DNA of 24,991 nt from a virus, in the IMG/VR virus record IMGVR_UViG_3300034378_000045, positions 1 through 24,991 of that record. The stretch is one strand, 5' to 3'. Position numbers and translations under genes: made by a program. Of the stretch, positions 49-21,134 are shown in pieces; the stretch's first letter is position 1, and the number at the start of each line of letters is the position of its first letter. Under the pieces are notes generated by a model that saw nothing but the letters and a program-made list of their open reading frames with translations, searched no databases and was not told where the DNA came from.

Positions 49-210
49 TCAGCACGATTCATCACTCACTTCATCGAATCGATCGGCCAGCTCCCACTCG
101 ATGCAGGGCTCATTATCCACGTCCTTGGCCTGAAGCCATATCTCGCACCAGCCCTCGTCGCCTTGGCCGTGATCGTACCAGCCGCACGTGCCGCATTTCT
201 TCGGCAGCAT
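49..210 (-). CDS. small Cys-rich protein, 53 aa, possibly metal-binding
   Basis: The ATG shares one base with the TGA of the radical SAM gene (TGATG junction), so it is probably translationally coupled. The 53 residues begin MLPKKCGTCGWYDHG and contain a CxxC-G-W motif, a GWC at residues 20-22, a PCIEW at 35-39 and a terminal Cys. The arrangement CxxC...GxC...C-x-E-W resembles small phage proteins that probably bind zinc or iron, and it echoes the Cys cluster in the sigma4/alpha-CTD protein at 23250-23966. It is the last complete gene of the putative glycan-modification unit. The function is unknown, and the metal-binding role is inferred from Cys spacing only. Confidence 0.55.
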   Translation of the reverse strand: MLPKKCGTCGWYDHGQGDEGWCEIWLQAKDVDNEPCIEWELADRFDEVSDESC

Positions 211-1667
211 CAGTACGTCTCCAGCACCGGCTTCGACTTGGCGTAGCTATCGAATGCCTGCTGCCAGCTCTTCGAGGTCTTCTGCTCCTGCGTCTTCTCC
301 ATCGTGCTTCTGCTGTGGCCGCAGAGCCGGCAGAGCTGCGCCTGTTGCCGGCGTAGAGCTTCCAGCGTCAAGTCGTCCAGACTCGGCATGGCGACGTCGA
401 TCCCGAAGACTCTGGATATACTCGCGCCCGCCCCGCACAGATAGTACCCGTAGCGCGTCAGCGCAAGCCCGCATCGCCACGGAATCGAGCAGGCTTGAAC
501 GCGGTTGATGTCCTTGTCTGCCGGGGCCAGATTCGCCGCCTCGAAGTCCGGCTTGCCCTTCTCCTTCGCGGAGTTCCGCACCTTCAGCCACTTCGGCAGC
601 TTGGCGAGGCGCTTCCGCACACGCCTGCCCGTCCCGTTGGTCGTGAACCTCATCTTGCACTTCGGCACCGCCTTCTTGTAGTCGTGGAGCAGGGCCAGTA
701 TCTTGTCCAGCTCGGGATGCAGCGTCGGTTCACCGCCGAGGATGTCGATCCGGTTCCAGCTATGATCGAGCTTCGTGTGCCAGTCCAGCGACTCCTTGAC
801 GAACCGTCCTACTTGCGCGGCGGTCATGCATTCGTCGCTGGGCGCGGTGGCGCAGTTACGGTCGCAGTTGGGGCAGCGCAGGTTGCATTTCGTCGTGATC
901 TCCAGCTGGATGTGCTCGAACAGCCGCTGGGCCAGAAACTCGGATCGCAGCCCGACCTTGGCGCAGATGTCCTCGCGGCACTTCTTCTCGCGCGCGTTGT
1001 GCCCGACGCCGAGCTTGTGCAGGTTCTTCGAGTGCCAGCTGAACTCGTTGACATGCTGCGCCAGCCACCACAGGTATGTATCGTGTGACGGAACCGGCAA
1101 GCGTCCTTGCGCCAGCCTCGCCGCCTCGCGCACGAACTCCGTCTTGTGCAGGCAGCAGAAGGACTGAATGCGCGGGGAGTTGTAGCGGTTCCTGTCCTTG
1201 TCGATCACCCGGCTGGCCGGCAGCTTGCCCCACTTGTCCAGCGTGGCGATGTAGGACGCGGGCCGCGTGTATCCCCAACGATGACTGACGAGGTCGTGCT
1301 TGAAGTCGCCGAGCTCGAAGACGTCCTTGTCGTCGGTGAACCAGCAGTCAGCATCGAGCTTGACGAAGTAGTCCGTCTTGACATGCTGGGCCGCGCCAAG
1401 GATGAACGCCGAGATCATGCGCTCGCGATCATCGGCAGCTTCCGGCATGGGCCAAGGGATGATTTGTGTCTGCTCAAATAGAGACTCAGGCGTTACCTCC
1501 AGCAACCAATCATGGAAGCTAATTGCTCCGTCCTGGCCGAATCCATGTATAAAGATGATCAAGGGCAGCTCGGCGAACTGCGGCTTGAGCCGCCACGTCG
1601 GCAGACACCAACGCAGCTTGCCGAGATGGGACGGCGTGACGGCAGTGACAAGGGTGATGCCGTTCAT
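210..1667 (-). CDS. glycosyltransferase / radical SAM fusion protein
   Basis: This 485-residue protein appears to join two enzymes. Residues 1-235 look like a GT-A glycosyltransferase, starting MNGITLVTAVTPSH and carrying the DxD-type metal and nucleotide-sugar motif LDADCW (D105 and D107). From about residue 250 a radical SAM domain follows: the CNLRCPNC motif (C261, C265, C268) would ligate the 4Fe-4S cluster that cleaves S-adenosylmethionine, and GGEP (311-314) is the usual SAM-contact motif. Further cysteines at 393, 399, 411, 446 and 449 resemble a SPASM/Twitch auxiliary cluster site. The start at 1667 forms an ATGA overlap with the upstream gene and follows an AAGGAGAG ribosome site, although the frame is open back to 1781. 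The substrate is unknown. Its place in a run of glycosyltransferase-like genes suggests making or attaching an unusual sugar, perhaps on virion proteins. Confidence 0.8.
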   Translation of the reverse strand: MNGITLVTAVTPSHLGKLRWCLPTWRLKPQFAELPLIIFIHGFGQDGAISFHDWLLEVTPESLFEQTQIIPWPMPEAADDRERMISAFILGAAQHVKTDYFVKLDADCWFTDDKDVFELGDFKHDLVSHRWGYTRPASYIATLDKWGKLPASRVIDKDRNRYNSPRIQSFCCLHKTEFVREAARLAQGRLPVPSHDTYLWWLAQHVNEFSWHSKNLHKLGVGHNAREKKCREDICAKVGLRSEFLAQRLFEHIQLEITTKCNLRCPNCDRNCATAPSDECMTAAQVGRFVKESLDWHTKLDHSWNRIDILGGEPTLHPELDKILALLHDYKKAVPKCKMRFTTNGTGRRVRKRLAKLPKWLKVRNSAKEKGKPDFEAANLAPADKDINRVQACSIPWRCGLALTRYGYYLCGAGASISRVFGIDVAMPSLDDLTLEALRRQQAQLCRLCGHSRSTMEKTQEQKTSKSWQQAFDSYAKSKPVLETY

Positions 1668-2575
1668 GCTCTCTCCTTCACCGCGTCCCAGATCGGCAGG
1701 TACTTCCGCAGCATCCGGTCGTTCAGGATGTAGGACTTCACGAACGGCAGCTCGCGTATCTGCTCGAACTCGCGATACCACATCTGCGAGTTGTACTGAA
1801 ACTGCACGGAGCCATCATGGAAGCGGCAATGCTTCCTGCCGTGGAAGTGGATGATGACCGCCTTCTCGATATCGCCATAGCGGCAGGACGTGTTGAATCG
1901 CGGGCTCATCAGCCGATGCGGATAGCTGGCGACCATCGCCTGACAGCAGGTCTCGTCCGGTATCCACGACTCCCGGCCCTGCATCGCGTAGCCCCACCAG
2001 TCGTGCATCAGCTGGGAGTCGCGCCGGAATGCATAGATACCCGTGTTGATCGCCGCCGGGTAGTTGTAGGCCGCGGCCATCATGTCGGCTGGCAGGATGG
2101 TTTCCCAGAACGCGGCCCGCTTCCTGATCATGCCCTTCACTTCCCAATCGTGGAACTGGCAGAGGGCGAACTCGTCCTGCTCGGCGGCATCCAGCATCGG
2201 GGTCACATCGCCCTGCACGATGCAATCAAGATCGATCAGCAGCGAGACATCGAAAGGCGTGTGCTTGTGCAGCAGGCACTTGTTCAGATACGCGCGATGC
2301 TTGCCCTCATCGGTCTGGAACTTCACCTGAACGGGCGATGCTGCATACTCGCCGCAGAGCTTGCCAATCTGCAAGCAGTCCCATGCCTCAACCGATTCGG
2401 TATCGAGCAGCAGCGCGACCGGCCCGTCCCAGTGCCGGCGCAAGGTATGAAGGCAGACGGCAGCTCTACAGAGCATTTTCCGTCCTGCATTAAAGAGAAT
2501 GACACCCCGGCGGGTACTGGTGTTGAGGATACCCGGCTGCGCAGGCAGAGGGGATTCAGACCCGCCGGGGTTCAT
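1664..2575 (-). CDS. GT8-like glycosyltransferase
   Basis: The protein has 303 residues and a GT-A look. The segment SLLIDLDCIVQGD holds a DxD motif (D115, D117) that would bind a metal and a nucleotide sugar. Near the C-terminal third, IIHFHGRKHC resembles the HxxGxxKPW-type motif that ends GT8 catalytic domains. The phrase AINTGIYAFRRDS also fits GT8, where an N-T-G segment contacts the donor. The start overlaps the upstream stop by four bases (ATGA) and the end overlaps the radical SAM fusion gene the same way, so the three genes are probably made together. Donor and acceptor are unknown. No signal peptide is visible, so it should act in the cytoplasm during virion assembly or on host cell-surface precursors. 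Confidence 0.72.
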   Translation of the reverse strand: MNPGGSESPLPAQPGILNTSTRRGVILFNAGRKMLCRAAVCLHTLRRHWDGPVALLLDTESVEAWDCLQIGKLCGEYAASPVQVKFQTDEGKHRAYLNKCLLHKHTPFDVSLLIDLDCIVQGDVTPMLDAAEQDEFALCQFHDWEVKGMIRKRAAFWETILPADMMAAAYNYPAAINTGIYAFRRDSQLMHDWWGYAMQGRESWIPDETCCQAMVASYPHRLMSPRFNTSCRYGDIEKAVIIHFHGRKHCRFHDGSVQFQYNSQMWYREFEQIRELPFVKSYILNDRMLRKYLPIWDAVKERA

Positions 2576-2775
2576 TTCGTTTCGATGTCCTTTGCCTGTT
2601 CGGGCACCTTCGGAGTTATCAGCTCGGCGATCCTCTCCAGGGCGAGCGCGATCCGTTCCTGCGTCAGCAGGGTCGCCTGGGCTTCGTTCGTGAGGATTAA
2701 CTCCTTCGTCTCTGCATCGCGCCAGCCCCGGTCGTAGTAGATTTCCCTACCGTTCAGCATTCCTCTTGCGGTCAC
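2572..2775 (-). CDS. small unknown protein, 67 aa
   Basis: A 67-residue protein translated from a GTG that forms a GTGA overlap with the upstream gene and ends in an ATGA overlap with the GT8-like gene. The first half contains LNGREIYYDRGWRDAETKELI. The second half (about 30-60) is a predicted amphipathic helix, TLLTQERIALALERIAELI. I do not recognise the family. Being locked between two glycosyltransferase-type genes suggests a role in the same process, for example as a helper subunit, but nothing in the sequence proves this. Confidence 0.6.
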   Translation of the reverse strand: MTARGMLNGREIYYDRGWRDAETKELILTNEAQATLLTQERIALALERIAELITPKVPEQAKDIETK

Positions 2776-3809: not shown

Positions 3810-4027
3810 CAGTCTTGCGTCAGGACGAGGACGATTACGAGCTTCTCTTCGCCGCCACACTCGAACTTGTGGCGCTGAGTGTGCCGGACCACGTAGCCGT
3901 CGGTCAGCAGCTTGTGCAGTGCCGCCGGCAAGCCTTGGCCCTTGAACGGGTCATCGTCGTTGGCGTCTTCCTTCGGCGTTCCCTTGACTTCGACCGGCGT
4001 TCCATCCGGCAGTTTACCCCTCTTCAT
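3809..4027 (-). CDS. small unknown protein, 72 aa
   Basis: Seventy-two residues with an acidic stretch (KEDANDDDPF, 19-28) and a C-terminal beta-rich part ending EEKLVIVLVLTQD. The start codon lies 14 bases inside the previous gene and follows AAGGGGACGAGG, a good ribosome site. It ends in a TGATG junction with the DUF115/GT42-like gene. I do not recognise it. It is the second gene after the promoter at 4296-4324 and so belongs to the glycosyltransferase transcription unit. Confidence 0.55.
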   Translation of the reverse strand: MKRGKLPDGTPVEVKGTPKEDANDDDPFKGQGLPAALHKLLTDGYVVRHTQRHKFECGGEEKLVIVLVLTQD

Positions 4028-4620: not shown

Positions 4621-5520
4621 CTATGCGACCCGGATCATCAGCGTCAAGCCGAGATGCGGGGGCCAGAGTGCCTTGTCGGTGATGCTGCCGCTGAAGGTGA
4701 CGTTGTGGTTGTGGTTGAGCCCGCCGCTTACCATGTCGGTCAGGCCGGAATGCGTGTGCGTGTCGTCGGCGGCATTGAAGTCGGTGCCGCTGGTCGCGCC
4801 CTGATAGCTGCTGGGCCAGCCCATACTGCAGTTGTGATCGTGATCGAGATCGACGTCATCTTCCGTGACCCCGAACGTATCGGGATGGCCGTGAGTCTCC
4901 GGGTCGCGATTGGCTTCGAGTTGCCCGTCGGTATCGCCGATCGCCATGTTGCTGCCGGTCGCGCAGATGTAGCGGTTCTTGGCATCCGCGATGTTGAACG
5001 TGCTCGATCCGTCGCCGTTGCCGTAACGGGTGCCGACCAGTGTGAAGTAGGTCGCGTAGGTCGTCCGGCTGATCGCGTCACCGTTGCAGACCATCCAGAC
5101 CGCACCGCTGGCATCGGTGTAGTCGGCAGTCCGGTCGCAGAACTTGTAGCTGCCGATATCCAGCACTCCGACCGCCCCGCCCTTGCCGAACGGGAAGAAC
5201 GGCAGGCCGCGTTCGCCCATCGCGATCATCGCGTGTTCGCCGCTGGCGATGGTATCCGGCCCGATGTTGAGCGCGGTGAAGCTATCGCCCCATGTCTCGA
5301 TCGAACTGCCGTCTGCATCCCAGTAGGCCAGCTTGACATCGCCGGTCGCGCCCGCCGCGATGCTGGCCTGCGCCTCGATCATATGCTGCGGCTTGCGTGG
5401 ATCGAACGGTGCGCCTTGGCGGTCAAGCTGCTTGGTCAGCCGGACGAGCGCGTTGAGCGACCGCGCCGAAACCCGGCGCTGGCCGGACTCGAACTTGGGC
5501 AGGTTGGTCCGTGAGGGCAT
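4621..5520 (-). CDS. tail fibre / receptor-binding protein with tail-collar domain
   Basis: This 299-residue protein has a phage tail-collar domain at about residues 142-184: the block DAISRTTYATYFTLVG followed by GNGDGSSTFNIADAKNRY is the classic collar signature. Four HxH pairs follow (210/212, 227/229, 255/257, 270/272). In T4 gp37-type fibres, HxH pairs of a trimer hold iron ions on the axis, so a metal-bound trimeric tip is likely. The N-terminal third contains a Pro-rich segment and a GEHAMIAMGERGLPF module typical of virion proteins. The start at 5520 shares one base with the upstream stop (TGATG); the frame is open to 5637, but that part overlaps the previous gene. It probably contacts the host receptor. 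Confidence 0.82.
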   Translation of the reverse strand: MPSRTNLPKFESGQRRVSARSLNALVRLTKQLDRQGAPFDPRKPQHMIEAQASIAAGATGDVKLAYWDADGSSIETWGDSFTALNIGPDTIASGEHAMIAMGERGLPFFPFGKGGAVGVLDIGSYKFCDRTADYTDASGAVWMVCNGDAISRTTYATYFTLVGTRYGNGDGSSTFNIADAKNRYICATGSNMAIGDTDGQLEANRDPETHGHPDTFGVTEDDVDLDHDHNCSMGWPSSYQGATSGTDFNAADDTHTHSGLTDMVSGGLNHNHNVTFSGSITDKALWPPHLGLTLMIRVA

Positions 5521-6404
5521 CAGCTGGAGCCCTGCGTGAACTTGAAGAGCGGCGTGAAGTCCGCGCTCTCGTAGAGCACCGGATCGGTATCGGCCCACGG
5601 GTGCGTGGCATCCGCGCCGTGGTAGACCTGATTCCACTTCGGCATCCGGTACTTGAAGACGAGTGTAAGTTCATACGGCTGCTGGCCTTCCGACGTATAC
5701 ATCCGCCGCGCGGTGCCGCCCATGAAGAGCAGGTAGCCGGGCGCGATCTGTTGCCGGTTCTTCGCGGTCGGGGGCCACGCGCCGGAATTGACCTTGCCGA
5801 GACAGTCCTGAATCGCTGTCTTGGGAAGCTCGATCACGTTCTTTTTCGTGTAGATGTAGTCCACGGTCGGGACGAGGACGTGCATCTGCTGCTGGACCGC
5901 CTTGCCGGCCTGCGGGTTCGCCGCGCCCTGCTGCGCCCGCCGATTCCAGAAGTATGCGCCCCACTTCAGATTGCCTTCCGGTGCCAGCATGAACTCGCCC
6001 GCGAAGTCCATCTCCTCGGTCGAGAGCACCTTCTCCTGCTCGTCCTTCTCCTTGTTGTAGGCGGCGGGCATGTACTTGACCGTGACGATCGCGGAGGTGA
6101 AGCTGATCTCGCCGGATGCGTTCTCGATCCGGCCTTCGCCTTCGATCGAGTATTCCTGCGCCTCGAGGATACCATAGCCGGGGAATCGTTGGGCTCCACC
6201 GAGTCGTCTCAGCTCACCTCGAACCCAGTCCACTTCGCCGAAGACGGCACTGAGGAAGTTGAACCGATCAGACCATGCGACCCGGAACCGCCGGATGCCG
6301 ACAGCCGTGCCGCCCGCGATCTCGAACCGCATCGAGTCATCGAGTTCGTTGTAGGCGACACCCCGCATGGTGCCGGCTGAATAGGTGGGCGTGGCAGGGC
6401 TCAT
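5520..6404 (-). CDS. distal tail / baseplate-type protein
   Basis: The protein has 294 residues, starts in an ATGA overlap with the tape measure gene and ends in a TGATG junction with the tail fibre. The sequence is mostly beta-type, with the segments MRFEIAGGTAVGIRRFRVAW, GEISFTSAIVTVKYMP and LLFMGGTARRMYTSEGQQPY. I do not recognise a family signature. In siphovirus gene order the position between tape measure and fibre is that of the distal tail and baseplate hub proteins, so this is the likely role. No hydrolase motif is visible. Confidence 0.6.
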   Translation of the reverse strand: MSPATPTYSAGTMRGVAYNELDDSMRFEIAGGTAVGIRRFRVAWSDRFNFLSAVFGEVDWVRGELRRLGGAQRFPGYGILEAQEYSIEGEGRIENASGEISFTSAIVTVKYMPAAYNKEKDEQEKVLSTEEMDFAGEFMLAPEGNLKWGAYFWNRRAQQGAANPQAGKAVQQQMHVLVPTVDYIYTKKNVIELPKTAIQDCLGKVNSGAWPPTAKNRQQIAPGYLLFMGGTARRMYTSEGQQPYELTLVFKYRMPKWNQVYHGADATHPWADTDPVLYESADFTPLFKFTQGSS

Positions 6405-8501: not shown

Positions 8502-8939
8502 CTAGGTGCTGCTGCTGCTGCTGGACGAGCTGCTGAACAGCGATGCGCTCGGCCAGCTCGGCTCGGCATCGTACTCGGCGGTGAACGTGAACTTGACCGC
8601 GTCGTTGTTGACGCTCACGATCTCGAAGGTCTTGACCTCGACCGTGCCGCCGATGTACTTCTCCGAGGACACGTAGATGTTCAGTGTCGCTACGGTGCCT
8701 CGTTTGATGCCCGGCGCGCTGTCGGTCGGCTGCTGCGCGTACTTCCACAGCCCGGTGGCCGAGATCGTGTACTCGTCGTTCACGGTCATCGAACGCTTGA
8801 TGCCCGCCGTTGAGCTGTCGGTGATGTCCGCGTCGTCGCCGCCGACCGAGATCGTCCACTCCTGAAGGTCGATGTCCGTCCCCGCGAAGTTGCCCTTGTT
8901 GTTATGCCCGGCGGCAATCGTCTCTCTGATTCTCGGCAT
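8502..8939 (-). CDS. tail tube protein with C-terminal nonaserine tag
   Basis: The protein has 145 residues. The block LQEWTISVGGDDADITDSS and the later ATGLWKY resemble the conserved core of small siphovirus tail tube proteins, and the position immediately before the chaperone pair is that of the tube gene. The protein ends LF-S9-T, nine serines followed by threonine, which looks added after the folded domain (end near residue 133). The major capsid protein has the same S9-T ending with different codons. The ATG at 8939 follows a leader containing GGGGGGCA. The tube is built from many copies, so the serine tags would be repeated along the whole tail if they point outward. Confidence 0.72.
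   Translation of the reverse strand: MPRIRETIAAGHNNKGNFAGTDIDLQEWTISVGGDDADITDSSTAGIKRSMTVNDEYTISATGLWKYAQQPTDSAPGIKRGTVATLNIYVSSEKYIGGTVEVKTFEIVSVNNDAVKFTFTAEYDAEPSWPSASLFSSSSSSSSST
8508..8534 (-). repeat. C-terminal Ser9 tag of the tail tube protein
   Basis: Nine consecutive serine codons (AGC, TCG and TCC mixed) followed by ACC and TAG. The length equals that of the capsid protein tag, but the codon order differs. Confidence 0.85.
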
Positions 8940-8953
8940 GGTTTCGCCCTCTG

Positions 8954-8961
8954 TGCCCCCC
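8954..8961 (-). promoter_or_regulatory. GGGGGGCA leader element before the tail tube gene
   Basis: On the minus strand GGGGGGCA lies 14 bases before the tail tube ATG. The same octamer precedes the major capsid gene (twice) and the connector gene. It may serve as an extended purine-rich ribosome site; other roles are possible. Confidence 0.3.
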
Positions 8962-8968
8962 TGTGACG

Positions 8969-9703
8969 CTAACTGCTGCTACTGCTGGAGCTGGAGCTGC
9001 GGGTCGCCATCGAGCTGGACGAACTGCTCGACGAGCTACTGCTGCTCGATTTCACCAGCGCGGCAGTCGAACTGCTGCTGCTTGACGAACTCGTTGAGGA
9101 GCTGGAGCCGCTGCTTGTCGTACTGCTCGACGAGCTGCTTGATGCCGTGCTGCTCGATGTGCTTGACGACGAGCTGCTCGAACTGCTGACGTCCGGCTCC
9201 TCCCCGATGATGAGCACCTTGAACCGCGCCCGATCCGAGGCGTGGTCGTTGGTGATGGTGATGACATCCGATGCGCCGCCGGCTACCGCGTATCCCGCCG
9301 CGTCCGGCCTGAAGAACATGCACATGCCGCCCGGCCCGACCTTGGCGTCAAGGCTGTGCGTGGTGCAGAAGTTGCCGCTGAGCGAGACCGTCACGCCGGC
9401 GGTCGCGGTCTCCATGATGATCTTGACGAGGCGCACCAACGCGAAGTTGAGCGTGTCGCCGAAGACGGTGTTGTCCGCGCCCCCGAACAGATCGATCGAG
9501 ACGTTGCCACCGCCCACCAGCTCGAAGCTGCGAACGTAGATATGGTTCCCGCGATCCGCCCCGCGCCCGTCGGTCAGCTGATCCTCGAAGATGTAGTCCG
9601 AGGCCACGTAGGGATCGGCCACGTCAGACGGGTCGCCCATGTCCTTGAACGCCTTGAAGGACACGCGGGTGTCGATCTCGCAATGGCTCAGATGCATGGT
9701 CAT
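8969..9703 (-). CDS. virion surface protein with 72-residue serine-rich tail
   Basis: This 244-residue protein has a folded part (1-172) that looks beta-rich, with the segments IYVRSFELVGGGNVSIDLFG and TAGVTVSLSGNFCT, followed by an almost pure serine tail (173-244) interrupted by a few Thr, Ala, Gly and the insert AALVK. The tail ends MATR-S9. The position between the tail terminator and tail tube genes argues for a tail or neck decoration protein. No family is recognised. The start ATG follows GTAGGAG, in which the TAG is the stop codon of the upstream gene. The serine tail could be a flexible, possibly glycosylated spacer exposed on the particle. Confidence 0.65.
   Translation of the reverse strand: MTMHLSHCEIDTRVSFKAFKDMGDPSDVADPYVASDYIFEDQLTDGRGADRGNHIYVRSFELVGGGNVSIDLFGGADNTVFGDTLNFALVRLVKIIMETATAGVTVSLSGNFCTTHSLDAKVGPGGMCMFFRPDAAGYAVAGGASDVITITNDHASDRARFKVLIIGEEPDVSSSSSSSSSTSSSTASSSSSSSTTSSGSSSSTSSSSSSSSTAALVKSSSSSSSSSSSSSMATRSSSSSSSSS
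8972..9187 (-). repeat. serine-rich tract, 72 residues
   Basis: Residues 173-244 of the surface protein are mostly serine, coded by AGC, AGT, TCG and TCC in irregular order. The last part is MATR followed by nine serines. Confidence 0.85.
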
Positions 9704-9714
9704 GCGTCAGTCTC

Positions 9715-10341
9715 CTACGGCCCCGAACTGCTGCTGCTGCTGGCCGATGAACTGCTGTGGCTCGACGTGCTGCTCGAACTCGAACTGCTGCTCGATCCCG
9801 AACTGGCGGTGCTGCTGCTGGATGAACTGGAACTTGAAGCACTGGAAGAGCTTACGGATGACGAGCTGGAGGAGCTGCTGCTGCTCGGGGATTGCGAGCT
9901 GCTGGAGGTCGAGGAGCTTGAGCTGCTGCTGCTCGGCTCGTCGCCCTTGACATAGTACATCGAGAAGGTCTGCGTCCCGTGCCAGATGACATTGCCCTCG
10001 TCGTCGCGATCCGGCTCGGCGTCGAGGTCTTCATCCAGCGGATTGATGAAGACCACTTGGCCGGAGGGGATCGCGTCGGGTTCCCAGCGGCAGAAGAGAT
10101 CGTGAATCCGGCGCATCCGGGTGGCGAGTTCAGTCGCGTCGAGCCCGATCGACTCCACAAGGATATCGACATCCCAGTGCGTCCACGTCCGGTTCGTGGT
10201 GCTGAGATCGCGCAGCGTGGCATCGACCTTGAAGGTGTGGTATGGCATGGGCGTCTCGCGCGGTGCGGGTTTCGCGTGAACCCGCGCTGCCGTGAACAGG
10301 CGGGCCAGCCCGCCATAGACCGCTTCGCGCACGTACTTCAC
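9715..10341 (-). CDS. tail terminator / completion protein with 70-residue serine-rich tail
   Basis: Read from the GTG at 10341, which forms a GTGA overlap with the gp10-like gene, the protein has 208 residues; the frame is open upstream to 10407. The start KYVREAVYGGLARLFTAARV fits the N-terminal helix of small tail terminator proteins (gpU or SPP1 gp17 type), and YHTFKVDATLRD and TFSMYYVKGDEP fit their beta strands. The gene order connector, gp10-like, this gene, tail tube is standard. Residues 137-206 are almost all serine, and the protein ends SSSSASSSSSSGP. That 13-residue ending is identical in the decoration-type protein at 14041-14667, with different codons. Confidence 0.68.
   Translation of the reverse strand: MKYVREAVYGGLARLFTAARVHAKPAPRETPMPYHTFKVDATLRDLSTTNRTWTHWDVDILVESIGLDATELATRMRRIHDLFCRWEPDAIPSGQVVFINPLDEDLDAEPDRDDEGNVIWHGTQTFSMYYVKGDEPSSSSSSSSTSSSSQSPSSSSSSSSSSVSSSSASSSSSSSSSTASSGSSSSSSSSSTSSHSSSSASSSSSSGP
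9718..9933 (-). repeat. serine-rich tract of the tail terminator
   Basis: About 70 residues of serine with scattered Thr, Ala, Gln, Pro, Val, Gly and His, ending in Gly-Pro. Serine codons are mixed, so it is not a simple trinucleotide repeat. Confidence 0.85.
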
Positions 10342-10781
10342 GTCAGCTTCCCCGTCAGCAGTTTCTTGACCTTGCGCCGGCAAGCCTTGTTCGTCAGGCT
10401 CATCCACGGGCGCGGTTCCATCGAGACCTCGACTTCCTTGCCGAAGACTTCGCCCGTTTCCTTGTTCGCTAGCACCTTGGCCCGCCGGGCAACGATCTTG
10501 TGCGGCTTCGTCCCGAGTTCAAGGAATTTCCCGTACTTCAGGTTCGTGCCCCATCGCCCGCCCAGCTTGTTCGGGTAGAGATAGTAGTCGATCGATTTCC
10601 TGAAGTCGCCCATGCGCTTCGCCGGGTAGCCGCCGGGGCTGCTGGGCGGAAGCTGGCTCACCTTCTCGCGCGCGTGGCTCACCAGCGTCATGCCGGCGGC
10701 GTCGAGCCGGCGGCGGCTATCGGCCATGATGTGCCGCTCGGCATCCTTGGCTTTCCAGTCGAGGCGCGTCTTCACATGCAT
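10338..10781 (-). CDS. HK97 gp10-like neck / head-tail connector protein
   Basis: The 147-residue protein contains LKYGKFLELGTKPHKI and later MEPRPWMSLT. These match the HK97 gp10 family pattern, in which a Y-x-x-(F/Y)-x-E-x-GT segment is followed by a (R/x)RPWM or RPFM motif. These proteins complete the neck between head and tail. A GTG at 10784 and an ATG at 10781 are both usable; the ATG has the better spacing from the AGGAG site. It overlaps the adaptor fusion upstream and the terminator downstream, giving the usual gene order. Unlike its neighbours it has no serine tract. Confidence 0.8.
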   Translation of the reverse strand: MHVKTRLDWKAKDAERHIMADSRRRLDAAGMTLVSHAREKVSQLPPSSPGGYPAKRMGDFRKSIDYYLYPNKLGGRWGTNLKYGKFLELGTKPHKIVARRAKVLANKETGEVFGKEVEVSMEPRPWMSLTNKACRRKVKKLLTGKLT

Positions 10782-12076
10782 CACAGAATCTCCTGCGCCT
10801 CAAGCTGGACGAGTTCGCCGTGTTCGTGCGCGTCGATCGGGCCGGCAGTGATGACGAAGGTCCGCGAGCCGTAGCTGATCCGGTCGCCCTCCACTGCCGA
10901 GACCGATTGCGCGAAGAAGACGTTGTGTGTCGAGCGGATATCGCGCCGGACGTAGGCGGCATACGGCCCGCTGCGGATCGGCTGGATGCTGGCGTAGGCC
11001 CTCAAGACCGTGGTCGGGTTGTCCCAGTTCGCCAGCGTCGAGCCGTCGCGCTGCTTGGTCGTGCTGGGCCGCTGCACCGTCACCCGCTGCCCTTCGTCGC
11101 GTATCCAGCCCCAGAAGTCCGAGATCGGGGCTTCTGATTCGCCCGATTCCGAGCTGCTGCTGCTGGTCGATGAGGACGAGCTGCTGCTCGATCGTGTGGC
11201 GCGGGAACTGGAGGATGATGACGAGCTGCTGGATGAACCCGATGACGAGGACAGGCCGGCAGAACTGCTGGAACTGCTACTGCTCGCGCTCGATGAGGAA
11301 GCACTGGATGAACTGGACGATGAGCTGCTACTCTCCGAGCTGCTGCTCTCCGAGCTGCTGGACGACGAGCTGCTCAGCGAGGAGCTGCTCGCGGATGAAC
11401 TGCTGAACGAAGAGGACGAACTACTGCTGGAGCTTGTACTGCTCGATGAAGAACTCGATAATGCCGTACTGGACGAACTGGATGACGAGCTGCTGCTGCT
11501 CGACGTGCCCCCGGTGAGTTCAAGGTTTTCCACCGAATAGGTGATGTCGGGCGTACCGGCAAGCTCACGGGACTGACAAGCGTGGACTACGCTATAGGAT
11601 GTGTTCGGGCAGGTGAGACTAAGCGTGTCTTCCAGCGTTGACCGCGCGGCGTCGGTGTAGATGTAGAGCGTGAGTGTCGTGCCGCTGCGAGTGATCTCGA
11701 TCCAACGAGTTATGGGCAATCCCGCGACGCTCATCGAGTCGAAGTCATCGTCGGTGGCATCGTACAGATAAACGCTCAGCGCCCCGCCACTCTCTCGATA
11801 GAGGAACGCGAGGATACCCGTATTGTCGCCGATCATGTCATTGATGGTTTTCGATGATGTATCAAGCGCCCAGATGCTGCCTTGGGCGGTATCGGCAGAT
11901 GTCGCGGTCCAAGTGAATTTCAATTCGTGGAAGAAGTTTCCGATCGTGAAGCCGGCCTTGGCAACGTGGGAGACGACTCCACGCTGCATCGTGCTGACAT
12001 CTACCTTGTTGGCAGTTACGGTGATATCATTGCCACCATCCGTCTCCGTATAGGTAGTGAAGTCTTCAAAGGCCAC
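10781..12076 (-). CDS. jelly-roll domain / serine-rich linker / head-tail adaptor fusion
   Basis: This 431-residue protein has three parts. Residues 1-191 look like a LamG/concanavalin-type jelly roll (FTTYTETDGGNDITVTANKV near the start, then W-I-E-I-T-R and L-T-L-Y-I-Y strands). Residues 192-309 are a serine-rich linker of about 118 residues that includes RATR. Residues 318-431 are a complete head-tail adaptor (head-closure) domain: the block beginning ISDFWGWIRDEGQRVTVQRP and the RDIRSTHNVFF segment fit the SPP1 gp16/HK97 gp9-type family. Head-closure proteins are normally only about 110 residues, so the first 310 are an addition. The start is GTG at 12076. The fusion would put a possible carbohydrate-binding domain on a long stalk at the neck. 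A truncated relative of the first part lies at 12416-12657. Confidence 0.68.
   Translation of the reverse strand: MAFEDFTTYTETDGGNDITVTANKVDVSTMQRGVVSHVAKAGFTIGNFFHELKFTWTATSADTAQGSIWALDTSSKTINDMIGDNTGILAFLYRESGGALSVYLYDATDDDFDSMSVAGLPITRWIEITRSGTTLTLYIYTDAARSTLEDTLSLTCPNTSYSVVHACQSRELAGTPDITYSVENLELTGGTSSSSSSSSSSSSTALSSSSSSSTSSSSSSSSSFSSSSASSSSLSSSSSSSSESSSSESSSSSSSSSSASSSSASSSSSSSSAGLSSSSGSSSSSSSSSSSRATRSSSSSSSSTSSSSSESGESEAPISDFWGWIRDEGQRVTVQRPSTTKQRDGSTLANWDNPTTVLRAYASIQPIRSGPYAAYVRRDIRSTHNVFFAQSVSAVEGDRISYGSRTFVITAGPIDAHEHGELVQLEAQEIL
11150..11503 (-). repeat. serine-rich linker, about 118 residues, longest in the window
   Basis: Serine-rich segment inside the adaptor fusion. It contains regular ESSSS units and the peptide RATRSSSSSSSST shared in part with two other proteins. 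Codons AGC, TCG, TCC, AGT and TCA are mixed. Confidence 0.85.
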
Positions 12077-12080
12077 GGCA

Positions 12081-12407
12081 TCAGTCTCGGTCGAACGTTA
12101 TGCTGCTCGCGTCGATGTCCTTGTGAACCGCACGAATCTTGAATGGCTTTGCTTTCGCGGCTTCCTTGATCGCTTGCAGTTTCTTCGCGCCCTCGCTTTC
12201 CAGACCACCAACCCCGGCACCGCAGGCTTTGCGGGCGGCGTATCCATGCTGACCGACGATCGCCAACCGCGCTCGGATCAGTTCGCGTTCCGCCCAATCT
12301 CTGGATGCATTGTGATCCGCGATCAGTTGATTCTTTAACTGTTCGCAGAACGTGGCGAGATCGGTGTCGGTTTTCACCGCGCTCGGCAGATCGGTTGTCC
12401 AGTTCAT
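12081..12407 (-). CDS. small unknown virion-region protein, 108 aa
   Basis: The preferred ATG at 12407 follows GGTGATGGG and gives MNWTTDLPSAVKTDTDLATF; the frame is open to 12440. The protein is mainly helical (LKNQLIADHNASRDWAEREL), with a Gly/Ala-rich middle. It ends five bases before the GTG of the jelly-roll/adaptor fusion. I do not recognise it. The place between the broken and complete jelly-roll genes suggests that this region was rearranged by duplication. Confidence 0.55.
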   Translation of the reverse strand: MNWTTDLPSAVKTDTDLATFCEQLKNQLIADHNASRDWAERELIRARLAIVGQHGYAARKACGAGVGGLESEGAKKLQAIKEAAKAKPFKIRAVHKDIDASSITFDRD

Positions 12408-12415
12408 CCCATCAC

Positions 12416-12657
12416 CTACCCTATGAATCCTCTCGACCACTGCCGACCCAGCGATTGGAATAGCGAACTCGATGAATTGGATGAGCTCGATGAGCTTGAG
12501 GAGCTGACCGAACTGCTGGACGGCGAGCTTGACGACTCCGAGGAACTCGAAGAACTGGGTCGCAGGTGAGCGCGGCCCACGACACCTTGGTGGCCGTGAC
12601 GGTGATCCGGGTATTCGGATCGACCTCGGTATAGGTGGTGAAGTTCTCCAGCCCCAT
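12416..12657 (-). pseudogene. truncated, frameshifted copy of the jelly-roll / serine-tail gene
   Basis: The frame starts with a strong GGAGAGAGG ribosome site and reads MGLENFTTYTEVDPNTRIT, closely matching the start of the adaptor fusion (MAFEDFTTYTETDGGNDIT). After about 25 residues the match ends. The serine-rich continuation (S6-E-S4-P-S4-V-S9-N-S4, 12464-12556) lies in the -1 frame and ends at a TAG at 12416, whereas the original frame gives an unrelated Arg-rich peptide. The simplest reading is a duplicated gene that lost most of its jelly roll in an out-of-frame deletion. A sequencing error or an unrecognised frameshift could also explain it. Confidence 0.6.
12464..12556 (-). repeat. 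serine-rich tract in the -1 frame of the broken gene
   Basis: Thirty-one codons, nearly all serine (AGT, TCT, TCG, TCC, TCA, AGC), with single Glu, Pro, Val and Asn. They are readable only after a -1 shift from the ATG at 12657. Confidence 0.75.
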
Positions 12658-12670
12658 GCCTCTCTCCGGT

Positions 12671-12757
12671 TCAGTCCAGCTTCCTGCCGGGCGGCTTCTC
12701 CCGAATCTTGACCGCGACGACCAGCACGATCAGGAAGACTAGGATCAGAAGGCCGAG
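12671..12757 (-). CDS. possible very small membrane protein without a standard start
   Basis: The frame between a stop at about 12791 and the TGA at 12671 encodes LGLLILVFLIVLVVAVKIRE followed by KPPGRKLD, a clean single membrane helix with a basic tail. There is no ATG, GTG or TTG before the helix, so a CTG start (12757-12748) would be needed. It fits neatly between two genes. Small phage membrane peptides of this kind are often lysis helpers, but whether this one is translated is uncertain. Confidence 0.3.
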   Translation of the reverse strand, partial: LGLLILVFLIVLVVAVKIREKPPGRKLD

Positions 12758-12761
12758 CGTC

Positions 12762-13055
12762 CTACGGCCCCCCGCCCTGCACGAATCCCATCACGATCTT
12801 GATGACGATGAGGATGATCGCGATGATGACCGCGCCGATGATCTTCCACAGCCAGTTGAGCCGGTGCGTGTTGCTCTTGCTGCGTTCGTCCACGCGTGTC
12901 GTGCTCCGCACCAGCTCGGTGATCTGCTCGCCGACGGTCTCCTCGAACCGCCGCTGGCTGTTGATGAACCGATCGACCTGTGTCGCCAGCGCCGAGGTGA
13001 TGTGGTTCCGGCGCGTCTCGCACTGGTCTTGGTTGACGTGGCTGTTATCCGGCAT
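12762..13055 (-). CDS. membrane-anchored coiled-coil protein, holin-like candidate
   Basis: The 97-residue protein has a hydrophilic helical part (1-65, with QVDRFINSQRRFEETVGEQI) and one strong membrane helix at 67-92 (LNWLWKIIGAVIIAIILIVI). This resembles XhlA-type holin-associated proteins: a coiled coil followed by a C-terminal helix. It overlaps the lipoprotein gene upstream by 11 bases. No endolysin is visible in the window, so a lysis role is inferred only from layout and the neighbouring spanin-like gene. Confidence 0.55.
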   Translation of the reverse strand: MPDNSHVNQDQCETRRNHITSALATQVDRFINSQRRFEETVGEQITELVRSTTRVDERSKSNTHRLNWLWKIIGAVIIAIILIVIKIVMGFVQGGGP

Positions 13056-13398
13056 CCTTCTTCACCAGCAGGCTGGCGAGATTCGGCGCGCTGCCCGATC
13101 GCAGGCCCGGTATCCCCAGCAACCGTCCGGCCACCACGCCGCCGATGGACAGCAGGATGTAGCCGATCTTGTGATACCACTTGCCCTCGGCATCGCGGAC
13201 TGCCTTCATCTCGGCGAGCAGCGGCTTGATCTGAGCCACCGCTTCCTTGGTGGTCAGCTTGCCCTCGGCGTGTTCTGCCGCGATCGTGTTGACCCGCTGC
13301 GTCAGGCTGTCCAGCTTGGTGGCGGTCTCCGGGGAGACGCAGCCGGCGACGACGAAACACAGTGCTGTCAGCAGTCCCGCGACAAGTGCGATCCTCAT
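13045..13398 (-). CDS. lipoprotein with C-terminal membrane segment, candidate u-spanin
   Basis: The N-terminus MRIALVAGLLTALCFVVAGC is a lipoprotein signal with a VAGC lipobox, so Cys20 should be lipidated. Residues 25-75 are helical and hydrophilic. A weaker hydrophobic segment, YILLSIGGVVAGRLLGI (80-96), follows. A protein of 117 residues with a lipid anchor at one end and a membrane helix near the other has the plan of unimolecular spanins such as T1 gp11, which join outer and inner membranes in Gram-negative hosts. The second segment is not strongly hydrophobic, so an ordinary lipoprotein is the alternative. The start follows GAGGAGG. Confidence 0.55.
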   Translation of the reverse strand: MRIALVAGLLTALCFVVAGCVSPETATKLDSLTQRVNTIAAEHAEGKLTTKEAVAQIKPLLAEMKAVRDAEGKWYHKIGYILLSIGGVVAGRLLGIPGLRSGSAPNLASLLVKKDAG

Positions 13399-13408
13399 CT
13401 CGTCCTCC

Positions 13409-14026
13409 TCATCCCTCCCAGTACATGAACCGTTCCAGCAGCGAGTTCAGGTTCTCGCGCCAGACCTTGACCTGCGCCTCGTTGATCCGCGTCTTCGATC
13501 CCGTGCCGATCCTCTGCGATCCCAGCCCCGCGTTCATGTTCAGCGAGGTCGAGGCATACAGGATCATCGCCTGTAAGATCACGGCCTCTTGGAAGTCATC
13601 GTCGGCGTTCTGGTTCGTCCAGCCTGCCGTGTAGGTGGCCTTGATGTTGCGCGGGTAGGTGATCGGGAACGTGGCGTAGATGGACGTGTTATCGGGGCCG
13701 AAGCTCACCTTGCCGGTATCGGTATCGAGCACCACATCGGCATCGGAGCCGGACACGTCGATGGTGTCCTCGTCGCCGTTGGCATCGATGACCGCCAGCG
13801 CGTCGAGCGAGACGACAGGGGAGTGGCGCAGGTAGAAGTAGGGCTTGTTCCGCCCGTCATAGTACTCGACGCGCGAAGCCCGGCTGAACAGGCGGTCGCA
13901 GCGGTTCTCGATGCGCCTTTCGGCCATAGCGAGGAAATCGGTGACGATCTCCTCGCTTATGGCCGCAAAGACCTGTTTACGCCGGGCCCGCGCTGCCGAC
14001 GTGTAGAGCAGCGTCGTGCTGGACAT
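13409..14026 (-). CDS. gp6-like head-tail connector
   Basis: This 205-residue protein matches the gp6-like connector pattern: a helical start, the segment MAERRIENRCDRLFSRASRV, then VEYYDGRNKPYFYLRHSPVV, where the connector family typically has a Y-x-G-x(n)-L-x-PV/SP(V/L) block, and a C-terminal helix with the LNSLLERF segment. It binds below the portal to extend the DNA channel. The ATG at 14026 is preceded by GGGGGGCA and no other ribosome site. It follows the capsid and decoration genes, the usual order. Confidence 0.78.
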   Translation of the reverse strand: MSSTTLLYTSAARARRKQVFAAISEEIVTDFLAMAERRIENRCDRLFSRASRVEYYDGRNKPYFYLRHSPVVSLDALAVIDANGDEDTIDVSGSDADVVLDTDTGKVSFGPDNTSIYATFPITYPRNIKATYTAGWTNQNADDDFQEAVILQAMILYASTSLNMNAGLGSQRIGTGSKTRINEAQVKVWRENLNSLLERFMYWEG

Positions 14027-14032
14027 CTAAGC

Positions 14033-14040
14033 TGCCCCCC
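14033..14040 (-). promoter_or_regulatory. GGGGGGCA leader element before the connector gene
   Basis: GGGGGGCA on the minus strand lies six bases from the connector ATG and is the only purine-rich run there, so it probably acts as the ribosome site. It matches the leaders of the capsid and tail tube genes. Confidence 0.35.
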
Positions 14041-14667
14041 TTACGGGCCGGAACTGCTGCTGCTCGAAGCCGAACTCGAACTGTAGCTCGAACTGCTTTC
14101 GCTGCTGCTCGAACTACTGCTGCTGCTCCGGGTGGCCCGGCTGCTTGAAGAGCTGGACGAGCTGGAGCTGCTGGTGCTCGAACTGCTCGAAGAGCTGCTG
14201 CTTGACGTGCTCGAACTGGACGAGCTCGAACTGCTGGGCGAGCTCGAAGAGCCGGTGCTGACCGAGCTGCTGCTTGAACTGCTGCTGCTTGACGACGAAC
14301 TGGAGATGTCAGCCGCCGGCGCGGTCGGGACTGCCCCGGCCTCGATGATCAGCAGCGTGGCGTCTGCCGAAGCGCCCTTGGCATACCACGCCTGCGTGTC
14401 GAGGTTGCCCAGCTCCTCGGACATCTCGTATGCGCTGCCGCCGATCTTCCCGGTAGCGAGGTAGTCCAGCGAGATGCCGATGTCCTTGCCCGAGCCGCTG
14501 CGGATTTCGATCAGCGCGTCCGCATCGCGGTTCTGCATCAGCAGGTAGCGCCTGCCGGGGTTGGCGTTGGCGACTAAGTCCCAGCTCCCGTTCGACACGC
14601 TCACGACGCGGAATGTCTTGTCGTAGGCGGGCTTCAGCACCTTCCGGGTGCTTCGTTCTGTTCCCAC
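14041..14667 (-). CDS. decoration-type virion protein with 85-residue serine-rich tail
   Basis: The folded part (1-120) contains NPGRRYLLMQNRDADALIEI and later AWYAKGASADATLLIIEAG. This pattern occurs in a small beta-rich protein encoded near many phage capsid genes. Residues 122-206 are almost pure serine, with an RATR peptide near the middle-to-end and the final sequence SSSSASSSSSSGP. The gene sits directly after the major capsid gene, where decoration proteins are usually found, so the tails may project from the head. The C-terminal 13 residues are identical to those of the tail terminator, but codons differ. Confidence 0.65.
   Translation of the reverse strand: MGTERSTRKVLKPAYDKTFRVVSVSNGSWDLVANANPGRRYLLMQNRDADALIEIRSGSGKDIGISLDYLATGKIGGSAYEMSEELGNLDTQAWYAKGASADATLLIIEAGAVPTAPAADISSSSSSSSSSSSSSVSTGSSSSPSSSSSSSSSTSSSSSSSSSSTSSSSSSSSSSSRATRSSSSSSSSSESSSSYSSSSASSSSSSGP
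14050..14304 (-). repeat. serine-rich tract of the decoration-type protein
   Basis: Eighty-five residues, nearly all serine, with a few Val, Thr, Gly, Pro, Glu, Tyr and Ala and one RATR insert. Codons are mixed. Confidence 0.85.
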
Positions 14668-14688
14668 TCTCTGACCTCCCGAGGGGCG

Positions 14689-14719
14689 GGGGTGGGGGGC
14701 CTAGTTGCCCCCGCACCCC
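14689..14719 (-). other. strong GC stem-loop between capsid and decoration genes
   Basis: GGGGTGGGGGGC (14689-14700) and GCCCCCGCACCCC (14707-14719) pair across a 6-base loop with one bulged base. No T-run follows on the minus strand. It could reduce read-through after the capsid gene, or protect the 3' end of the capsid message and so help set the high capsid expression. The role is inferred. Confidence 0.55.
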
Positions 14720-14748
14720 CCAAGTCCCTCAGTTATGCAGCTGACCTA

Positions 14749-16344
14749 CTAGGTCGAGCTGCTGGAGCTGGAGCTGCTGCTGACGCCTGCGACATCGGCC
14801 AGAACGACGAATGCCTCGCCGCCCAGCACGCGCCCGCCGACGTAGGTGATCAGGCGGTAGGTCACAAGCCCGGTGTTGAAGGCGTAGTGGTCCGACCGCT
14901 CGATTCCCATCTCGTCGGTATCGACGCAGAAGCCGTAATGACGGCAGTTGCCGTAGATCACGTCTCCGCGCTGACCGACGTTGCGCGTATTCGCCTTGGT
15001 CCGCAGGTAGGGGCGGTTGAGCAGCAGGCCGCGCGGCCCGCGCTGCCCCGCCGGCCCCCAGCCGGTGAACTGATTGAAGAACACCGACCGTCCGTCGGAG
15101 TCGTCCAGCGAGACCATGTACTGCATCGCGCCGGAAGAGCCGCCACTGACGATGTAGGTGCCCTCGTCGGTGGCTCCCTCGTCCACGTCGAACTGCATCC
15201 GCCCGAGGTCGGTGTAGCTGACCTGCGCTGCGACCTGCCGCGCCCGCGTGACAACGCCGTGGCTGTTGATCGCGAGGTTGGTGTTGATCCCCAGCGGCAA
15301 CCCGGCGTTGTTGAAGAGGGTGTCCGAGCCCTCGATGATGTCCTGCCCGTAGGCGAACAGCACCGCGTTCCTGAACATCCACGCCAGCTCGGCCTCGAAG
15401 GCGATGTCCGCGTTGCGGACCTCCTTGAGCGAAGCCTGCGAGAGTGCCGCCACACGACCCGTCGAGATCGTGATCTGGTTGAACTGCGGGTTGCTCTCGG
15501 TGATCGCCTGACCTTCGCCCTGACCACTGGCCCCGTTCCCGCGAGTGATCGCGACGCCGAATGGCGTGGTCGCGCTCTGCGTCAGCTCGGGGAAAATCGC
15601 CTGCCGGCCTACGGCCCGCTTGACGAAGCACATCGACGGGATGTCGTGGACGAGGTTGATCTCCCGCCGATAGAGCTGGGGCACGTAGTCGGTGTCAATC
15701 AGGGCTGCGCCACCGGACTGCGTACCGGCGGCGTCGGTGGACAGGACGTCATTGGCTGACGCCTTGCCTTCGAGCCCTGCCGCTGCCATCGCTTTCGCGA
15801 GGCGCGGGTTGGACATGATGACATCCAGCGCGGTCGGCTGCGGCAGGATGAACCGCCGCATCCAGCTCGGTGCCTGCACCGCGCCGGCGTCCTCCTTGGC
15901 CTCGACGCGCTTGAGCATGATCTCATCCACCAGCACGTCGCCGTGCTTGGATGCCATCTCCTGAAGCGCGGTCGCCCCGCTCTTGGGGTGGATGAGGTAG
16001 CGCATGGACGCCTCATCCTTCTTGGCCTGATACTGCATCCGGTTGTGGTCGGTATCGGGGATTTCGACCTTCGGATCGGCCAGAGTGCCGTCGGCCTTCT
16101 TGTCCTCGGTCTTGTCCTCCTTCTTCGGCTTCAGCTCGGCCAGCCGATCGGCCCGCTTCGCTGCGGTCTGAAGGCGCTCGACCTCCTTCTCCTTCGCCTC
16201 GAACTCGGCGGTTTTCTCGTTCAGCTCCTCGACCAAGACTTCCTTCTTGGCGTCGGTTTCCGCCTTGTCGATGCGTTCCTCGATCTCGGCGATGCGGGCG
16301 TTGAGCGCCTCCATCTCCGCGATCAGTTCTGCGATCTTGTCCAT
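14749..16344 (-). CDS. HK97-type major capsid protein with C-terminal nonaserine tag
   Basis: The 531-residue protein begins with a coiled coil (1-80, IAELIAEMEALNARIAEIEE), the delta/scaffold domain found in HK97-type capsid proteins and normally removed by the prohead protease. A Lys/Glu linker (about 75-95) follows, then the capsid fold. Segments such as SMCFVKRAVGRQAIFPELTQ, AFEAELAWMFRNAVLFAYGQ and DTLFNNAGLPLGINTN are typical of the family. The gene lies directly after the protease gene. The C-terminus is V-S9-T, nine serines and a threonine, beyond the normal end of the fold. With hundreds of copies per head the tag would form a dense serine surface if exposed. Confidence 0.9.
   Translation of the reverse strand: MDKIAELIAEMEALNARIAEIEERIDKAETDAKKEVLVEELNEKTAEFEAKEKEVERLQTAAKRADRLAELKPKKEDKTEDKKADGTLADPKVEIPDTDHNRMQYQAKKDEASMRYLIHPKSGATALQEMASKHGDVLVDEIMLKRVEAKEDAGAVQAPSWMRRFILPQPTALDVIMSNPRLAKAMAAAGLEGKASANDVLSTDAAGTQSGGAALIDTDYVPQLYRREINLVHDIPSMCFVKRAVGRQAIFPELTQSATTPFGVAITRGNGASGQGEGQAITESNPQFNQITISTGRVAALSQASLKEVRNADIAFEAELAWMFRNAVLFAYGQDIIEGSDTLFNNAGLPLGINTNLAINSHGVVTRARQVAAQVSYTDLGRMQFDVDEGATDEGTYIVSGGSSGAMQYMVSLDDSDGRSVFFNQFTGWGPAGQRGPRGLLLNRPYLRTKANTRNVGQRGDVIYGNCRHYGFCVDTDEMGIERSDHYAFNTGLVTYRLITYVGGRVLGGEAFVVLADVAGVSSSSSSSSST
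14755..14781 (-). repeat. C-terminal Ser9 tag of the capsid protein
   Basis: Nine serine codons, in order AGC x3, TCC, AGC, TCC, AGC x2, TCG, then ACC TAG. The encoded ending S9-T equals that of the tail tube protein. Confidence 0.88.
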
Positions 16345-20773: not shown

Positions 20774-21134
20774 CGATCGGTGCCTCTCTGCCGTACCACT
20801 TCTGCGTCACTTCGCCGGAATGCTCGACCTGCTGCTTCTCGATGTAGCCGCGTTTCTTGCCGATGCACTTCAGGAAGAAGCAGATCGCCCACGGCTTGCC
20901 TTCTGCGACGGCTTGAAGCAGCTTGCCCTCGGCGAGATCGAGCTGCTCTTCCCGTGCGCGTTCTGCGGCCTTCGCTACCCGCTTGCTCGACTTGATGCGG
21001 TCGCGCACTGTCTCGTAGCGACAGCCGGCCACCTTGGCCGCGATGGTGACGAGCCCGCGCGCCTTGATCAGCGCGTCGATGATCACCTTGTCGGGGATCA
21101 CCTTGCGGCCCTTCGACGGCTTCTTCTCAGCCAT
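20763..21134 (-). CDS. terS: terminase small subunit
   Basis: Read from the ATG at 21134 the protein has 123 residues; the frame is open upstream to 21266, but that part overlaps the methyltransferase. An N-terminal helix-turn-helix (LVTIAAKVAGCRYETVRDRI) is followed by an acidic helix, AREEQLDLAEGKLLQAVAEG, and AICFFLKCIGKKRGYIEKQQ, the typical small terminase pattern in which an FxLK..G..RGY segment precedes the end. It recognises the packaging site on phage DNA and loads the large subunit, encoded directly downstream. Confidence 0.85.
   Translation of the reverse strand: MAEKKPSKGRKVIPDKVIIDALIKARGLVTIAAKVAGCRYETVRDRIKSSKRVAKAAERAREEQLDLAEGKLLQAVAEGKPWAICFFLKCIGKKRGYIEKQQVEHSGEVTQKWYGREAPIDEV

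Follow-up and report, generated by a model that had tools for sequence, protein, structure and literature searches.

Why should so many virion proteins of a single phage carry tracts of serine (Ser), and do glycosyltransferase (GT) genes on the same strand act upon them? The question is raised by IMG/VR record IMGVR_UViG_3300034378_000045, a virus record of 24,991 bp, classed as linear and analysed here as a whole (the window). An original prediction held that the Ser tracts of six virion proteins are O-glycosylated or serve as adhesive brushes, and that a unit with three GT-like genes belongs with them. We consider it likely that the phage itself O-glycosylates the Ser tails of its virion proteins, giving the particle an O-linked glycoprotein coat.

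Serine tracts and glycosyltransferase genes of the window

Ser tracts of 9, 85, 118, 70, 72 and 9 residues are present in six intact virion-type proteins, reproducing the predicted lengths to the residue, and a seventh, predicted for a broken gene, was located at about 12410–12657, where ~28 initial residues similar to the N-terminus of the 10781–12076 fusion precede a Ser run in a different frame (Table 1). As had also been claimed, the terminase, portal, protease, connector, gp10-like, chaperone and tape measure proteins are free of tracts; they are among the 25 other called genes, none of which exceeds 4 Ser in any 12-residue window, as compared with maxima of 9–12 in the tract proteins. 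Since no gene in 390 kb of control phage DNA (450 genes) reaches 11 or more Ser in 15 residues, a chance origin of the tracts is excluded.

The tracts are not plain poly-Ser. The island [R/M]ATR occurs in three of them and TAALVK in one, two end in ASSSSSSGP, and the shared islands and endings are written with differing synonymous codons. All six Ser codons are in use, the longest run of any single codon is four, and switches between AGY and TCN codons are near random expectation. Codon usage for Ser differs modestly between tracts and the remaining sequence (p=1e-4), AGT and TCA being commoner in the tracts. This mixing of codons, on which the original prediction had already remarked, indicates that the tracts are held at the protein level. 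Simple triplet-repeat slippage, considered as their source, is ruled out by the same mixing.

The GT genes had been predicted to follow the tract genes on the same strand. The unit (gt1–gt3, 210–3860) is real and occupies that strand, but it falls outside the 8502–16344 interval to which the prediction was tied, separated from the closest tract gene by ~4.6 kb that contain tail genes. PF01973, the Maf/MptE-like family, is matched by 8/8 relatives of gt3 (best 7.1e-12); the window gt3 itself scores 0.0035 (17.6 bits), below the cut-off of 34.6. Its AlphaFold model has a predicted local distance difference test score (pLDDT) of 85 and one confident domain, spanning residues ~20–280, and the top 10 Foldseek matches of this model are all CstII or Cst-I, which are Campylobacter sialyltransferases, followed by mammalian sialyltransferases. 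The protein is without the three-domain Maf architecture and there is no flagellin in the window; gt3 would act like Maf, yet falls outside Maf proper. Judged from its family and predicted fold, it is likely to be a Ser/Thr O-transferase.

The AlphaFold model of gt2 (pLDDT 93) matches the catalytic domain of UGGT/glycogenin (Foldseek E~1e-12), which is a GT-A fold, and its DxD residues, D115 and D117, are invariant in 41 aligned sequences; the DxD motif of gt1 is likewise invariant in alignment. Sequence-based comparison of gt3 and gt2 with folds in the PDB gave nothing useful, and the three GTs had no tblastn match among INPHARED phages. The radical SAM motif of gt1 reads CNLRCPNCDRNC; a fusion of GT and radical SAM domains is also present in contig G041, and the radical SAM profile also matches loci L228, L232, L259, L263 and L267.

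Recurrence in other phages and in prophage-like loci

A DNA pattern for mixed-codon poly-Ser retrieved G003, an unrelated 96-kb phage that encodes homologues of all three GTs (30–36% identity) and in which 634 bp separate the unit from the gene for a Ser-tailed protein. We gathered 52 viral loci by gt3 profile or homology, ignoring Ser content, and scored a Ser-tract gene as one with at least 11 Ser in 15 residues, in loci of at most 20 kb. Such a gene is present in 22/38 viral loci that bear the unit and in 0/17 control loci (390 kb; Fisher p=1.8e-5); viral loci with gt3 alone have one in 1/9 cases (p=0.023). When whole contigs were read where they had been fetched, the count rose to 27/38, adding G046, G049, G052, G058 and G060, so that the search for other phages pairing tracts with these GTs, which the original prediction proposed, was positive. 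For the controls, a first random pattern gave four loci, to which terminase-related INPHARED phages were added.

In several phages the unit is placed among the structural genes. Contig G043 has seven strict Ser-tract genes; in one the tract is an insertion in a tail-sheath-like protein, and two decoration-like proteins are tailed (the sheath and decoration labels are our own reading, Pfam being silent). The unit's genes are joined in shifting ways: gt2 with the GT part of gt1 (gt1a) in G003, G043 and G046, gt3 with gt2 and gt1a with the radical SAM domain in G041, and gt3 with gt1a and gt1a with gt2 in the bacterial locus L272. These changing fusions argue for a single pathway. Within-contig placement tests gave combined values of p=0.017 for unit phages and p=3e-4 for the others, several single contigs being non-significant. 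Certain islands (TEVSET, TAVSLT, TEVLTT, LGIT and RATR) reappear both inside single unit phages and from one such phage to another, and genomes with islands make up 18/26 unit phages as compared with 2/22 non-unit phages (p=9e-6), the latter set having been picked by a pure-run pattern that disfavours islands. Since at least five large unit contigs have no tract, the link between unit and tracts, though strong, falls short of absolute.

Viral contigs L003, L005, L006, L021, L022 and L023 share a short, near-identical open frame, SRTNKPSIFNTNHFSRSSSS...GRSGFFNHKRFYTHV, in which a Ser run varies; it resembles a length-variable repeat rather than a virion tail.

The view that most Ser-tailed phages have no GTs, which arose from the absence of PF00535 and of the gt unit, was dropped after GT8-, GT9- and GT4-type genes were found beside tracts. 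A GT8-like protein is encoded by eight contigs (G009, G016, G018, G020, G027, G029, G031 and G037), often near Ser-tract genes, and in those inspected (G016, G018, G031 and G037) its gene stands in a run with S-adenosylmethionine (SAM) methyltransferase-like and GT9-like genes; G019 and G033 encode GT9/GT4-type proteins plus an epimerase or a DegT aminotransferase. The original prediction had named tract-bearing relatives without any GT as evidence against it; none was found. GT-type genes, some of other families than those of the unit, are present in 12/12 examined Ser-tailed contigs of at least 38 kb; seven were positive by PF00535, PF00534, PF01501 and PF01973, and the rest by the unit profiles and the GT8-like profile. 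At equal threshold, PF00535, PF00534 and PF01501 had no match in 13 whole control phages. As to arrangement, a GT (GT8-like, GT9-like or other) and SAM methyltransferase-like genes lie near tracts in G009, G016, G018, G020, G029, G031, G033 and G037, and the cassette lies between Ser-tract genes in G016, G018, G033 and G037.

A broader proposal is that unrelated tailed phages, several of which have relatives in prophages of Planctomycetota and Verrucomicrobiota, build mucin-like coats in which long poly-Ser arrays on many virion proteins are glycosylated by exchangeable phage cassettes (a Maf-like unit or GT8/GT9/methyltransferase), with the islands as recognition elements, and that such coats are widespread and undescribed; here we find the case evenly balanced.

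Bacterial relatives of gt3 come mostly from Phycisphaerae, other Planctomycetota and Verrucomicrobiota, and 43 of the 57 bacterial loci matched by the gt3 profile have a Ser-rich gene no more than 200 nt from gt3. In three Phycisphaerae-type loci (L288, L309 and L349), phage tail genes are followed by gt3 and then directly by a Ser/Gly-rich gene; the tail tube of L288 belongs to PF06199 and its Ser/Gly-rich gene contains a Hint domain, the tape-measure-like genes having been called by eye. This arrangement suggests that the minimal pair is gt3 plus a Ser-rich protein, and that gt3 would be the enzyme that touches Ser.

One chromosome, CP054186.1, holds four prophage-like matches of the order tail genes, gt3, Ser/Gly-rich gene (L283, L299, L328 and L346). 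In the bacterial contigs L272, L276, L278, L271 and L302 (Planctomycetaceae, Verrucomicrobia), genes for very long Ser-tract proteins lie close to gt3 or to the GT unit; the L272 protein is Rhs/YD-repeat-like by eye. Comparison of the window's 5520–6404 protein with tail proteins of the prophage-like loci did not reveal homology.

Gene order and coordinates

The minus strand carries, in order, a DNA methyltransferase (21127–22140), terminase, portal, protease, capsid, the 14041 protein, connector and the fusion with the head-closure domain, followed by the gp10-like, 9715 and 8969 proteins, tail tube, the 7980 protein, tape measure, tail proteins, gt3, gt2 and gt1. Among the product names used here, those of the capsid, head closure, head–tail adaptor, tail tube and tape measure are backed by PHROG or Pfam profiles, but decoration (14041), tail terminator (9715) and chaperone (7980) are names from gene order alone, without a PHROG or informative Pfam match. 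Searches for relatives by capsid and portal found none close, or distant portals only. Between head genes, 13045–13398 encodes a small protein that matches Pfam DUF7219 (2.2e-6) and whose N-terminus has a lipoprotein-like signal (VAGC).

Table 1. Positions of the glycosyltransferase genes, the tract proteins and their serine tracts in the window
Feature	Position	Strand	Remarks
gt1: N-terminal GT-like domain with KxDxD motif, fused to radical SAM domain	210..1781	-	Pfam Radical_SAM 5.9e-7
gt2: GT-A glycosyltransferase	1664..2575	-	D115/D117 invariant
gt3: PF01973 (Maf/MptE-like) family, 362 aa	2772..3860	-	CstII-like predicted fold
Tail tube protein	8502..8939	-	PHROG major tail protein 7.4e-5; Pfam Phage_tail_2 2.6e-3
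Tail tube, C-terminal tail Ser9-Thr	8508-8534	-	
Surface-type protein, 172-aa domain + tail	8969..9703	-	PHROG 22694, function unknown
8969 protein, 72-aa Ser tail, 55 Ser	8972-9187		islands TAALVK, MATR
Tail-terminator-position protein, 158-aa domain + tail	9715..10407	-	name by position only
9715 protein, 70-aa Ser tail, 59 Ser	9724-9933		end SSSSSSGP
Fusion: N-terminal ~190-aa domain, Ser tract, C-terminal head-closure domain	10781..12076	-	Pfam Phage_HCP 2e-5; PHROG head closure Hc1
Fusion, internal 118-aa Ser tract, 98 Ser	11150-11503		island RATR
Broken partial copy of the fusion-gene N-terminus	12410..12657 (about)	-	Ser run about 12431-12577, other frame
Small protein after capsid, decoration-type by position, 121-aa domain + tail	14041..14667	-	domain without PHROG match
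14041 protein, 85-aa Ser-rich tail, 72 Ser	14050-14304		island RATR, end SSSSSSGP
Major capsid protein, 531 aa	14749..16344	-	Pfam Phage_capsid E=1.7e-20
Capsid, C-terminal tail Ser9-Thr	14755-14781	-	Ser9 = residues 522-530

Proposed mechanism, alternatives and known systems

In the mechanism that we propose, the Ser tails would be unstructured acceptor arrays, borne by proteins of head, neck and tail that presumably face outward. The phage GTs would add sugars to these arrays in the cytoplasm of the host, while the particle is being assembled or earlier. Most likely it would be gt3, a putative Maf/CstII-type enzyme using a sugar activated with cytidine monophosphate, that makes the first bond to Ser/Thr; gt2 and the GT part of gt1 would extend or decorate the glycan, and the radical SAM part of gt1 might modify the sugar or the acceptor. 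The islands in the tracts ([RM]ATR and TAALVK here; TEVSET, TEVLTT and LGIT in relatives) may serve recognition or spacing. The coat might help the phage to bind its host, or shield it from proteases, grazers or receptor decoys. What the sequences show are the tracts, the families and folds of the enzymes, and a neighbourhood that is conserved and recurs in unrelated phages; the O-glycosylation originally predicted finds support in the co-occurrence together with the PF01973 domain and the CstII-like predicted fold of gt3.

Several points weigh against this mechanism. Attachment of sugar is inferred, as are the order of the enzymes, the donor, the outward location of the tails and any benefit. 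The Foldseek scores of gt3 are modest (E 2e-3 to 7e-3, TM 0.26–0.43, prob 0.91–0.99), comparison of gt1a with gt2 was unconvincing and gave no profile-level match, and no nucleotide-sugar synthesis gene was noted in the window record. Viral loci with gt3 alone rarely have a Ser tract (1/9). At least five large unit contigs have none (G042, 173 kb; G053, 98 kb; G051, 74 kb; G050, 64 kb; G048, 54 kb), and a Ser/Thr-rich substitute sought in them was seen only in G042, as a short Thr-rich tail, and was absent in four; the unit therefore has, or can have, other targets. In addition, the control phages, most of them cultured, were taken at random or for their terminase similarity, and the 57 bacterial loci include so many related copies that they represent few independent events.

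The alternative that survives best, although we hold it to be unlikely, is that the Ser tails carry no modification and serve as flexible brushes or linkers, providing solubility, spacing or weak adhesion, with the GT unit directed at something else, for example the host envelope or a tail fibre. Pure poly-Ser suits a linker, the tract of the 10781–12076 protein does join two domains, and the large unit contigs that are free of tracts fit such a division of roles. Nevertheless, unrelated phages repeatedly combine tracts with GT cassettes, and the cassettes are of more than one type; relatives of the Maf-like enzyme act on Ser/Thr (PMC11339370), and in the prophage-like loci a Ser-rich gene comes directly after gt3.

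It is very improbable that, as in T4-like phages, the GTs put sugars on modified DNA bases and lie near Ser-tail genes incidentally. Phage GTs that decorate DNA are common, as discussed in PMC12619734, and the window encodes a DNA methyltransferase, but no base hypermodification enzyme was seen in the 25-kb record, gt3 is Maf/CstII-like and adjoins Ser-rich genes, and in several phages the unit is placed within the structural gene region. We give as little credence to the tracts being by-products of repeat expansion or of gene conversion between genes, with little function. The islands (RATR twice, MATR) and ASSSSSSGP ends (two genes) that are shared would be expected from copying between genes, and one tract copy has decayed; against this, Ser has been kept despite six mixed codons in which single-codon runs do not exceed four, the shared islands differ at synonymous positions, and the tracts are confined to selected proteins, in unrelated phages likewise. 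Modification of the tails by host enzymes or by other chemistry (e.g. phosphate), with the phage unit only partly involved, is scarcely credible: the record has no sugar-donor pathway and gt1 contains a radical SAM domain, but Ser-tailed phages of several lineages each encode GT genes of their own.

If O-glycosylation of the virion by phage enzymes is correct, particle glycosylation could be recognized from sequence alone, by Ser tails and adjoining GT cassettes, and would be spread over several unrelated phage groups; it would also bring to light new protein O-glycosylating enzymes with simple acceptors. For bacteria that are poorly cultured, the proposal concerns how their phages are shielded or adhere, and its prediction can be tested on any Ser-tailed phage in culture.

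Reports of glycosylated particles concern a few cultured phages, and Freeman et al. 2023 is reportedly the primary study of virion glycosylation in mycobacteriophages. In a limited literature search, virions with poly-Ser tails and GT cassettes were not described in any paper. In bacteria, the serine-rich repeat glycoproteins (GspB/Fap1) offer long Ser-rich tracts as acceptors, and their genes lie near those of dedicated GTs (GtfA–GtfB). The window phage resembles them in its long Ser-rich tracts and its GT genes, but the likeness drawn in the original prediction is at most an analogy: here the tracts are on virion proteins and the GTs are of other families. Pfam scans of the window's main genes gave no GtfA/GtfB, SecA2/SecY2 or cell-wall anchor, and no signal peptide was noted.

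Maf enzymes O-glycosylate Ser/Thr of flagellin, and their Maf_flag10 domain (pfam01973) resembles Cst-II (PMC11339370). The gt3 family is like Maf in matching PF01973, in its CstII-like predicted fold and in having Ser/Thr-rich partner substrates nearby; it is unlike Maf in that gt3 is short (362 aa) and non-flagellar. The sugar that Maf-type enzymes transfer to protein Ser/Thr is a nonulosonic acid or Kdo.

The closest parallel among phages is with the mycobacteriophages Che8, Corndog and Myrna, whose GTs glycosylate capsid and tail tube at their C-termini (PMC12363180, PMC12619734). The capsid and tail tube of the window phage also end in short Ser/Thr tails (Ser9-Thr), which are candidate acceptor sites, and GT genes are present. 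The enzymes differ, those of the window being PF01973/CstII-like, UGGT/glycogenin-like and a GT–radical SAM fusion, a comparison made with the Che8 and Corndog GTs only through the tblastn search of INPHARED, which gave no match. Unlike the mycobacteriophages, moreover, the window phage adds Ser tracts of 70–118 residues on four further proteins.

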